DNA of 64,000 nucleotides from Actinomadura luteofluorescens. GTDB lineage: Bacteria; Actinomycetota; Actinomycetes; Streptosporangiales; Streptosporangiaceae. Shown here piece by piece: positions 41,951 through 45,163 of this stretch (position 1 is the first letter of the stretch; every line of letters begins with the position of its first letter). The position numbers were made by a program, and so were the translations under genes. The stretch is from the NCBI RefSeq assembly GCF_013409365.1, contig NZ_JACCBA010000001.1, positions 9,300,001 through 9,364,000 on the forward strand. The letters run 5' to 3'. The notes beneath the pieces are model-generated. The model ran no database searches and had not been told where the DNA came from. It was given only the letters and a program-made list of their open reading frames with translations.

Positions 41951-42000
41951 TGGGGCGGATCCGGGGCGATCCGGCCCGCGGTCAGGCGTCCCTACCGTTG

Positions 42001-42180
42001 AGACATCCGAGCTCATAGGGTTCGGATGCCCCGGAAGGGGCGGGTGTGGCTTTCAGGTGTCTGCTGTTGTTATGGCTCCCGCCGACTCGCCGCCCGCCCC
42101 TTCGTGACGGACTCGACCTCTGATTAAGAGCTGCGAACCGATCGCTGAGTAGGGACCTGGTGGCGAGCTCGTCTGTGGGC
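42001..42180 (+). ncRNA. IS110 bridge RNA (target-binding and donor-binding loops)
   Basis: The left noncoding end can fold as a 5' hairpin (CATCCGA 42004-42010 with TCGGATG 42022-42028), a first loop closed by GGGGCGGG (42037-42044) and CCCGCCCC (42093-42100), and a second closed by 42106-42115 with 42164-42173 (9 of 10 pairs). The first loop holds TCAGGTGTC (42053-42061), matching left target TCAGGCGTC with one wobble, and CCCGCCGAC (42078-42086), the exact complement of right target 43415-43423. The second holds GATTAAGAG (42122-42130), identical to the right element end 43407-43415, and GTAGGGAC (42149-42156), the complement of the left end 41988-41995. This is the four-guide design established for IS621. 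RNA ends are approximate. Confidence 0.88.
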
Positions 42181-42212
42181 TGAACACAGAACCTGCTGGT
42201 GAGAGGCTTGAG

Positions 42213-43400
42213 TTGACGCGAGTGTGGGCCGGGGTGGACATCGGCCGAGACCATCATCACGTGGCGGTGGTCGACGGTGACGGCAAGCGGGTGTTCTCCC
42301 GCAGGGTCGCCAACGACGAGACCGCGCTGCTGGCGACGATCAGCGCTGTCCTGGAGCTGGCCGAGGAGATGACCTGGGCGATCGACCTGCACAGCAGCGA
42401 GTCGCTGCTGCTGCTGACGCTGCTGCTCGACCACGGCCACAAGGTCGTCTACGTGCCCGGCATCGTGGTCAACCGGGCCGCCGAGGGTTACCGCGGCGCA
42501 GGCAAGACCGACGCCAAGGACGCCCTGATCATCGCCGACCAGGCCCGGATGCGTCGTGATCTGACCGTCCTGGACGGCGACGACGAACTGGTCATCGAGC
42601 TGCGGATGCTGGTCGCCCGCCGCACAGACCTGGCGGCCGACCGGACTCGGGCGGTGAACCGGCTGCATGACCAGCTGCTGGCCATCTGCCCCGCCCTCCA
42701 GCGCGCCCTTGACCTCACCACCAAGGGGCCACTGGTGCTGCTGACCGGCTTCCAGACCCCCGCAGCGCTGCGCGAGATCGGCGTTGACGGCCTCACCATC
42801 TGGTTGAAGGACCGCAAGGTCCGTAACGCCGCCGCTCTGGCGAGCAAGGCCATCGCCGCCGCACGATCCCAGCACACCCCCCTGCCCGCCGAGCGGACGG
42901 CCGCGCTGCTGGCCGCCCAGCTCGCCCGGGGGGTGACCACCCTCAACGAGCAGATCAAAGAACTCGACCAGCTCATCGAGGACCGGTTTCGCCGCCATCC
43001 GTCCGCAAAGGTGATCGTCAGCATGCCCGGCATCGGGGTGCTGCTCGGCGCCGAGTTCATCGCGGCCACCGGCAAGATGAGCCGCTTCGCCACCGCCGAC
43101 CAGCTCGCCAGCCTCGCCGGCGTCACCCCGCTGCCCCGCGACTCCGGACGCATCAGCGGCAACCTGCACAGGCCTCAGAGATACAGCAGGCCCCTGCAAC
43201 GCGTCTTCTATACCTCCGCGCTGCTCAGCATCCAGTCCTGCCCTGAATCTCGACGCTTTTACGACCGCAAACGAGCTGAGGGCAAACGCCACACCCAAGC
43301 AGTCCTCGCCCTCGCCCGCCGCCGCGTCAACGTCCTGTGGGCACTCCTGCGCGACAACCGCACCTACCAACCCGCACCTCCCCTCACCCTCGCCGCTTGA
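42213..43400 (+). CDS. IS110-family transposase (DEDD recombinase)
   Basis: 395 aa. N-terminal RuvC-like DEDD domain (GVDIGRDHHHVAVVDGDG with Asp9; KTDAKDALIIADQARM carrying later acidic residues) and C-terminal Transposase_20 domain (SMPGIGVLLGAEFIAATGK, then SLAGVTPLPRDSGRISG with the conserved serine region). Full length and unbroken, hence likely active. TTG 42213 has GAGAGG 5 nt upstream; GTG 42222 is an alternative. The protein recombines donor and target DNA guided by the RNA encoded just upstream. Confidence 0.95.
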   Translation: MTRVWAGVDIGRDHHHVAVVDGDGKRVFSRRVANDETALLATISAVLELAEEMTWAIDLHSSESLLLLTLLLDHGHKVVYVPGIVVNRAAEGYRGAGKTDAKDALIIADQARMRRDLTVLDGDDELVIELRMLVARRTDLAADRTRAVNRLHDQLLAICPALQRALDLTTKGPLVLLTGFQTPAALREIGVDGLTIWLKDRKVRNAAALASKAIAAARSQHTPLPAERTAALLAAQLARGVTTLNEQIKELDQLIEDRFRRHPSAKVIVSMPGIGVLLGAEFIAATGKMSRFATADQLASLAGVTPLPRDSGRISGNLHRPQRYSRPLQRVFYTSALLSIQSCPESRRFYDRKRAEGKRHTQAVLALARRRVNVLWALLRDNRTYQPAPPLTLAA

Positions 43401-43408
43401 CAAGCGGA

Positions 43409-45163
43409 TTAAGAGTCGGCGGGCGAGACCGGCAGGTGCAGGCGGCCGCCGGCGGCCCTGAACTCCTCGGCCTTCTCCCGCATCCCGGCGGCGAGCCCCG
43501 CCTCGTCGTCGAGCCCGCGCTCGGCCGCGAACCGCCGCACGTCCCGCGTGATCTTCATGGAGCAGAAGTGCGGCCCGCACATCGAGCAGAAGTGCGCCGT
43601 CTTCGCCGGCGCCGCCGGGAGCGTCGCGTCATGGAAGGACCGGGCCGTGCCGGGGTCGAGCGACAGGTTGAACTGGTCCTCCCAGCGGAAGTCGAACCGC
43701 GCCTCCGACAGCGCGTCGTCCCACGCCTGCGCGCCCGGATGGCCCTTGGCGAGGTCGGCGGCGTGCGCCGCGATCTTGTAGGCGATCACTCCGGCCTTGA
43801 CGTCCTCGCGGTCCGGCAGCCCGAGATGCTCCTTCGGGGTGACGTAGCAGAGCATCGCGGTGCCGTGCCAGCCGATCATCGCGGCGCCGATCGCCGAGGT
43901 GATGTGGTCGTAGCCGGGCGCGATGTCGGTGGTCAGCGGCCCGAGCGTGTAGAACGGCGCCCCGTCGCACCACTCCTGCTGCAGATCGACGTTCTCCTTG
44001 ATCTTGTGCATGGGGACGTGTCCGGGCCCCTCGTTCATCACCTGGTTGCCGAACCGCGCGGCGATCCGCGTCAGCTCGCCCTGGGTGCGCAGCTCGGCGA
44101 ACTGGGCCTCGTCGTTGGCGTCCGCGATGGAGCCGGGACGCAGCCCGTCCCCGAGCGACCAGGTCACGTCGTAGGCGGCGAAGATCTCGCACAGCTCCTC
44201 GAAGCGGGTGTAGAGGAAGTTCTCCTCGTGGTGCGCCAGGCACCACGCCGCCATGATCGATCCGCCCCGCGACACGATCCCGGTCTTGCGCCGCGCCGTC
44301 AGCGGCACGTAGGACAGCAGCACCCCGGCGTGGACGGTCATGTAGTCCACGCCCTGCTCCGCCTGCTCGATCACGGTGTCGCGGAAGACCTCGTAGGTGA
44401 GCTCCGCCGGGTCGCCGCCGACCTTCTCGACCGCCTGGTACAGCGGGACGGTCCCGACCGGCACGGGCGAGTTGCGCAGGATCCACTCGCGCGTGGTGTG
44501 GATGTCGCGGCCCGTCGACAGGTCCATGATCGTGTCGGCGCCCCAGCGGGTCGCCCACGTCATCTTCTCGACCTCGTCCTCGATCGAGGACGCGACGGCC
44601 GAGTTGCCGATGTTGGCGTTGACCTTCACCAGGAAGTTGCGCCCGATCACCATCGGCTCGATCTCGGGATGGTTGACGTTGGCGGGCAGCACCGCGCGCC
44701 CGGCGGCCAGCTCGTCCCGGACGAACTCCGGGGACACGCCCTCGCGCAGCGCGGCGAACTCCATCTCCGGCGTGATCTCCCCGCGCCGCGCGTGGGCGCG
44801 CTGCGTGACCGCGCCGCCGGTGGCGCGCCGCGGCCGCCTCGGCAGGGCGTCCTCGCCGTCGGCCAGGGGGAGGCCGCCCGCGCCCGCGGGGGGCGACGAG
44901 CGGCGCCCGTCGTCCTCGGGGCGCGCCGCCCGCCCCTCGTAGGGGGCGGTGTCGCCGCGCTCGGCGATCCAGGACTCCCGCAGCGGCGGCAGGCCCCTGC
45001 GTACGTCGGTCTCCTTCCCAGGATCGGTGTACGGCCCGGACGTGTCGTACAGGACGACGACGTCGCCGCTGGTCAGCGGCACCTCCCGCATCGGGACCCG
45101 GACATCCGGGCGCGAGCCCTGGAGGTAGGTCTTGCGGGCAGCTGGAACCACAGGTTCGGTCAT
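43409..45163 (-). CDS. thiC: Phosphomethylpyrimidine synthase ThiC (3' end altered by IS insertion)
   Basis: 584-aa radical SAM enzyme converting aminoimidazole ribotide to HMP phosphate for thiamine synthesis. The [4Fe-4S] motif CSMCGPHFC gives Cys526, Cys529 and Cys534 near the C-terminus, as is particular to ThiC; other signatures are [16 protein letters not shown] and [14 protein letters not shown] 45163 lies directly after a TPP riboswitch. The last codons are Ala-Asp-Ser-TAA, in which the TCT-TAA comes from the right end of the IS110 element; the pre-insertion ending was most likely Ala-Asp-Ala-TGA, so function should be preserved but transcription now runs into the IS. Confidence 0.96.

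Follow-up and report, generated by a model that had tools for sequence, protein, structure and literature searches.

What decides where an IS110-group insertion sequence lands, and why does one such element sit in the very last codons of a host gene? Both questions are raised by a locus in a 64,000-nucleotide stretch of Actinomadura luteofluorescens DNA (contig NZ_JACCBA010000001.1, positions 9,300,001 to 9,364,000; this whole stretch is called the window), in which an intact insertion sequence of the IS110 group, with its putative bridge-RNA region 5′ of the recombinase gene, occupies 41989–43415 at the end of thiC. Features lie on the forward (+) strand unless marked (−). Taken as a whole, the sequence is very probably best explained by a bridge-RNA IS110 element inserted at the thiC end and belonging to a clade that is steered to gene 3′ ends and brings a replacement stop codon with it.

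The initial annotation claimed four guide segments in the noncoding region of the element, and direct reading of the sequence finds all four matches where they were placed. In the target loop, the left target guide TCAGGTGTC (42053–42061) matches the flank TCAGGCGTC (41982–41990) with a single U.G wobble at 41987, and the right target guide CCCGCCGAC (42078–42086) is the exact complement of GTCGGCGGG (43415–43423). In the donor loop, the left donor guide GATTAAGAG (42122–42130) equals the right element end, or left donor (43407–43415), while the right donor guide GTAGGGAC (42149–42156) is the exact complement of the left end GTCCCTAC (41988–41995). The left target, TCAGGCG (41982–41988), begins with TCA (41982–41984), the antisense of the original thiC stop TGA, and the right target GGCGGG (43418–43423) lies within the coding end of thiC. 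Both closing stems claimed earlier are also there, 42037–42044 with 42093–42100 (GGGGCGGG/CCCGCCCC) and 42106–42115 with 42164–42173, the latter with one mismatch and one G.U pair.

The insertion itself can be read precisely. Joining the flanks in silico gives GGTCAGGCGTCGGCGGGCGA, and the same 20 bases occur, free of any element, at the thiC end of another genome of the genus (G059, locus L147), whose thiC product is 95.8% identical over 503 residues and whose gene codes SPADA*. This natural empty site shows that the boundaries are exact and that only the core is repeated, with no further target duplication. In the window, thiC (radical SAM ThiC; 43409–45163, −) now ends SPADS* instead of SPADA* because the right end of the element supplies a substitute stop, TAA (43409–43411, −). 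A thiamine pyrophosphate (TPP) riboswitch is predicted on the 5′ side of thiC (45159–45272, −; 62 bits, gathering threshold 54.3), and since the insertion is at the 3′ end of the gene the riboswitch is left in place.

To compare guides with flanks across the clade we took the best 80 of 503 relatives from a scan of species-representative genomes, those 80 all carrying actinobacterial names. Together with the window copy and four copies from whole genomes they gave 85 loci, of which the final parser read 67; the other 18 had no pattern match for the target loop, the left end or the right end. The 67 loci represent 64 distinct sites, and 57 of these have at least 240 nucleotides of right flank for a codon model. 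An earlier parse (43 loci, 31 distinct guide pairs) was used for a permutation test in which flanks were permuted within each core class. Left guides paired with their own flanks at 202 of 217 positions (permuted mean 148.3, maximum 180) and right guides at 141 of 186 (permuted mean 90.2, maximum 114); none of 10,000 permutations reached either value. When the five closest relatives are compared, the guides rank with the most variable parts of an RNA that is otherwise conserved. The donor side behaves in the same way. In 14 distinct combinations of left donor guide and right end, 105 of 112 positions are identical, and shuffling gave at most 99. The right donor guide pairs with the left element end and changes along with it, also within the core, with both-side changes at three pairs in 22, 9 and 16 of 48 sequences. 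A second segment resembling the right donor guide, TCATAGGGT, is found 5′ of the target loop at 42013–42021; it has the form TA.GGT in all 48 aligned RNAs and does not track changes of the donor end.

The core was called GTC in the initial annotation, which proved wrong. The left core is TC at 41989–41990 and the right core TC at 43416–43417, the dinucleotide common to left flank and right end in TC-core relatives. The G before it stands at both ends of the window element, whereas in relatives such as L067 and L022 the two ends do not share it; the core is therefore TC. Over the 64 sites the core is TC in 23, GC in 25 and GT in 16.

Secondary structure was examined in an alignment of 48 of the 49 noncoding regions (L093 was left out). 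The stem closing the target loop, which extends to 11 pairs (42034–42044 with 42093–42103), is paired in 98.3% of cells, and 7 of its 11 pairs are changed on both sides. A small hairpin between the target guides (42063–42076, pairing 42063–42065 with 42074–42076) is paired in 100% of cells, with no pair changed on both sides. The donor-loop stem (42106–42115 with 42164–42173) is paired in 98.7% of cells, with 1 of 9 pairs changed on both sides, and is therefore compatible with the alignment rather than proven by it. The reading of the region as a bridge RNA is thus held up by the covariation of guides with flanks, the compensatory changes in the target-loop stem, the covariation of the donor guides and the exact empty site in thiC. 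Several observations weigh on the other side. A 5′ stem-loop proposed at 42004–42010/42022–42028 was dropped, as only 47.6% of cells are paired; the window RNA folds with a minimum-free-energy z-score of −1.96, with 6 of 200 shuffles equally good; and no Rfam family matches the bridge-RNA region. Guide fit is poor on the right side of L003 and on the left side of L099 and L102, and because related sequences are not independent, the permutation counts and the frame counts given below overstate certainty. On balance, the sequence comparisons support a noncoding region that would act as a bridge RNA with two loops carrying guides to both strands of target and donor.

The protein fits this assignment. 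The recombinase (42213–43400; 395 aa, TTG start) has the Pfam domains PF01548 (RuvC-like) and PF02371 (Tnp), and its length falls inside the 300–460 aa range given for IS110 recombinases (PMC11208160). When aligned to IS621 (PDB 8wt6), its residues D9, D58, D100, D103 and S311 correspond to IS621 D11, E60, D102, D105 and S241, where IS621 residue numbers follow PMC11208158 and the 8wt6 chain numbering is offset by two. Sequence alignment to ISCro4 (PDB 9t56) likewise gives the catalytic positions, and the four acidic RuvC residues and the Tnp-domain serine are all present by alignment. The second acid, D58 (codon 42384–42386), is Asp rather than the Glu of IS621 and is nearly invariant as Asp among 34 aligned sequences; the tetrad is therefore not literally DEDD. 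The noncoding region (41991–42212, 222 nt) lies upstream of the recombinase gene, and the right end is short, 15 nt from the recombinase stop to the right core. None of the longest 25 of 130 inverted-repeat pairs links the element ends as terminal inverted repeats would. In the IS1111 group the noncoding RNA lies downstream of tnp, whereas the RNA region here is upstream, and the element belongs to the IS110 group of the IS110 family. The host genome has ten PF01548 matches, whose scores suggest several IS110 lineages beside that of the window element.

A candidate promoter sequence is present and conserved at the predicted circle junction. TTGACA, a −35 hexamer (43397–43402) that contains the recombinase stop TGA (43398–43400), would stand 17 nt before the −10-like hexamer TACCGT (41993–41998) once the ends are joined as a circle. 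Among 46 distinct joined ends, the first base of TTGACA lies 19 nt before the core in 38 and 20 nt before it in 5, and 3 have no TTGACA. A spacer of 17 nt separates TTGACA from TACCGT or a similar hexamer, and in 37 of the 46 the recombinase stop lies inside TTGACA.

What can be read from the DNA itself comprises the guides and the way they covary with flanks and element ends, together with the empty site, the restored stop and the promoter sequence at the junction; from these we infer a cycle of excision, transcription, RNA binding and recombination. The element would be excised as a circle, whose junction promoter (TTGACA, 17 nt, TACCGT) would drive the bridge RNA. The target loop of this RNA would pair with TCAGGCG-TC-GGCGGG and its donor loop with the joined element ends, and the recombinase with its bridge RNA would recombine the circle into the target TCAGGCGTCGGCGGG across the TC core, here entering the last codons of thiC. 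A left guide beginning with an antisense stop would steer insertion towards gene 3′ ends, where the right end would give a replacement stop in the same frame, so that the host protein would be altered only at its last residues.

Is the guide then aimed at thiC? The initial annotation was right about thiC as the insertion site, but a guide specific to thiC is rejected by the distribution of the target in the genus. Of 65 genus genomes, 32 contain the exact 15-base target, 41 times in all, compared with 6 occurrences of the reversed pattern, and only 1 of the 31 matches examined (at 30 loci) is in thiC. The codon model called 24 of these 31 as gene ends in the predicted frame, 2 as coding in another frame and 5 as not coding, and the examined matches read PADA* or PADT*. 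The address is therefore gene ends of a particular codon make-up. The host genome no longer contains an exact copy of the target, and 12 places are one base off.

A related pattern is seen in the guides of the clade. UCA, the antisense of TGA, stands at positions −7 to −5 of the left target guide in 37 of 44 distinct guides. At 61 of 64 sites (or 42 of 45 distinct right ends) the right end brings a stop in the corresponding frame within four codons, compared with 0 of 64 in either other frame. In the cases read, the host protein ends -S* or -SQ*. The codon model, trained on the window and applied to the right flanks of the 57 sites, called 14 of the 42 sites with an antisense stop in the target as coding in the predicted frame, 1 in another frame and 27 as not coding; the 15 sites without one gave 1, 4 and 10, respectively. 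As a control, random window positions were spread over all six frames (1,652 of 2,000 called, 237 to 305 per frame). Fifteen open reading frames ending in the right end were searched against Pfam: 13 from the 15 predicted-frame sites (omitting L083, with 29 codons, and the window) plus L114 and L131, added for their long open frames. Eleven of the 15 carry Pfam domains (two MFS transporters, a zinc dehydrogenase, DJ-1, a Rieske oxygenase, a patatin, an acetyltransferase, DUF5655 and three transposase/integrase domains) and four have none. The DJ-1 locus, L089, is an exception: the TCA there is displaced by one base, and the codon model reads the left flank, too, as coding in the same frame.

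These patterns suggest that the clade may have acquired, under selection for gene-end targeting, an RNA-guided address that denotes gene ends in general, with the right terminus as a codon patch that lets the host gene end after one to three element codons, a proposal on which we are evenly divided. If it is correct, the last 19 bp of the element (43397–43415) would serve at once as recombinase stop, −35 box, donor recognition sequence and substitute stop. Part of the evidence counts against it. The codon model makes no coding call at the 27 of 42 stop-bearing sites mentioned above, and the longest open frames show only a slight preference, 17 of 57 in the predicted frame and 15 in the next best. 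Twelve plasmid copies were opened from the 15 best of 223 matching records; three lie in stretches without annotated features, and an opposite-strand gene ends at the right end in 2 of the 9 annotated copies (L175 and L178). The right-end stop is also kept at 14 of the 16 sites without an antisense stop in the target (a set that includes L089 and, with the left flank missing at a contig edge, L108 and L109), compared with 47 of 48 sites with one. The expectation that right-end stops are lost only in elements that do not aim at stops was consequently not borne out, and the right-end stop need not be maintained for gene-end targeting.

The strongest rival accepts the bridge-RNA element and regards the placement at stop codons as a by-product: UCA would be kept by a constraint of RNA or protein, and in GC-rich genomes TCA followed by GC-rich sequence would most often happen to be a stop codon. 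This account, which we consider somewhat improbable, would explain why the UCA positions carry 1.3–1.8 bits compared with 0.03–0.75 at other guide positions, and it would accommodate both the persistence of right-end stops at sites without an antisense stop and the 24 gene ends among the genus matches, which the window target marks with no element needed. However, the 7 of 44 distinct guides that lack UCA nevertheless agree with the left flank at 6 to 8 of 8 bases, wobbles counted, so UCA is not needed for pairing, and the confinement of right-end stops to the one relevant frame also speaks against a by-product.

Other insertions bear on how faithfully the guides are followed. The host genome holds two further full-length relatives, L002 and L003, with 81% nucleotide identity to the window element; they have no mismatch to each other over 1436 nt and sit in different places. 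The initial annotation had named insertions of the same element at unrelated sites as a refutation, and these sister copies put this to the test. The left guide TCAGTGGTC equals the left flank of both copies exactly. The right guide fits at L002 apart from a wobble and a mismatch among six positions; at L003 it fits only at the first two bases.

Not every relative aims at a stop. At L090, L093, L099 and L116, whose guides lack the antisense stop, the right flank reads an IVE.-type protein directly after the site, and the left flanks of L090, L093 and L116 read GFV...K. L086 and L142, with guides likewise lacking it, lie in a reading frame with GDK on the left and LDEVF on the right. We take IVE./GFV...K and GDK/LDEVF to be conserved motifs of IS5- and IS6-type transposases. 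In addition, the frames at whose end L002 and L067 sit encode DDE_Tnp_1 transposase domains. Together, the transposase-like frames and the DDE_Tnp_1 domains indicate that some members of the clade insert into other insertion sequences. L094 shares the left guide of the group L086/L090/L093/L099/L116/L142 and has a frame that resembles a host enzyme.

A separate possibility is that the window copy inserted correctly, with guides that once worked, but is now dead and no longer moves. Of the three full-length copies of this type found in the host genome, no other has these guides; against this, its recombinase frame is intact, neither end is missing, the promoter sequence at the junction is there, and the sister element exists in two identical copies. 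We regard a dead copy as unlikely.

Two further explanations can be dismissed as very improbable. Coincidental guide–flank matches, or capture of flanking sequence by the noncoding region, could appeal to the fact that 19 of 20,000 random window positions outside the element (~0.1%) give a comparable double match for the window copy alone under lenient rules (ordered 9-nt left and 9-nt right pairings no more than 60 nt apart, anywhere in the 222-nt noncoding region, with unlimited wobbles), but the family-wide permutations never reached the observed pairing and the guides occupy fixed places inside a covarying stem. A protein-only preference for a conserved motif, with another role for the RNA, would fit the left target TCAGTGG, identical in many copies, but is just as hard to credit, as targets and guides change together between close relatives such as the window copy and L064 (83% recombinase identity).

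With the bridge-RNA reading retained, the locus offers a legible natural guide–target pair, an exact empty site and close relatives differing by few guide bases, which would make it a good substrate for studying natural bridge-RNA reprogramming. Its recombinase and those of its relatives, with TC and GC cores, can be compared with the CT-core IS621. If the gene-end reading is true, an RNA-guided mobile element would keep the damage to its host small by targeting stop codons and restoring one.

Among known systems, the closest comparison is IS621, a bridge-RNA element of the IS110 group (PMC11208160, PMC11208158; PDB 8wt6). Both have the same recombinase domains and a left-end RNA, putative in the window element, that forms a target loop and a donor loop; in each loop the 5′ side pairs with the bottom strand and the 3′ side with the top strand, and all four pairings take in the core. 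IS621 also rebuilds a promoter at the circle junction, as is predicted from the sequence of the window element. The IS621 core is CT with an almost invariant T (PMC11208158), whereas the core is TC here and GC and GT in sister clades. This contrast, drawn with IS621 alone, indicates a different core usage and places the window element outside the IS621-like subgroup, not as an IS621 orthologue. The target differs as well, being a repetitive extragenic palindromic (REP) element for IS621 and a gene 3′ end for the window element. ISCro4 (PDB 9t56), compared as a structure entry, has recombinase domains in common with it. In ISEc21 and other seekRNA elements (PMC11187229) the noncoding RNA of the IS110 type is upstream of tnp, as here, and natural target reprogramming between related elements, seen in the window clade, has a counterpart in ISEc11/ISXne4 (PMC11187229).

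Gene boundaries are already known as targets from IS900 of Mycobacterium avium subsp. paratuberculosis, an actinobacterial IS110-family element with the target motif CATGNNNNNNTCTCCTT (PMC8141618), although IS900 aims at translation initiation signals, according to the title of Doran 1997, and so at the opposite gene end from the window element. More distant IS110 copies in two genus genomes (L055, L058 and L061 in G007 and G008; ~1500–1610) have a left flank with CAT, the antisense of ATG and by eye a gene start; their left end would put AGGGA just upstream, as if replacing the ribosome site, which invites comparison with IS900. The main texts of PMC11208160 and PMC11187229 do not contain the term "stop codon", and that of PMC11187229 uses "termination codon" once, of the tnp gene. 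Earlier work (PMC11208160, PMC11208158, PMC11187229, PMC8141618, PMC12500396) already describes natural reprogramming, junction promoters and the presence of bridge RNAs in most IS110 elements. Relative to described bridge-RNA elements, the variant features of the window element are its gene-end addressing with stop replacement and its TC core.

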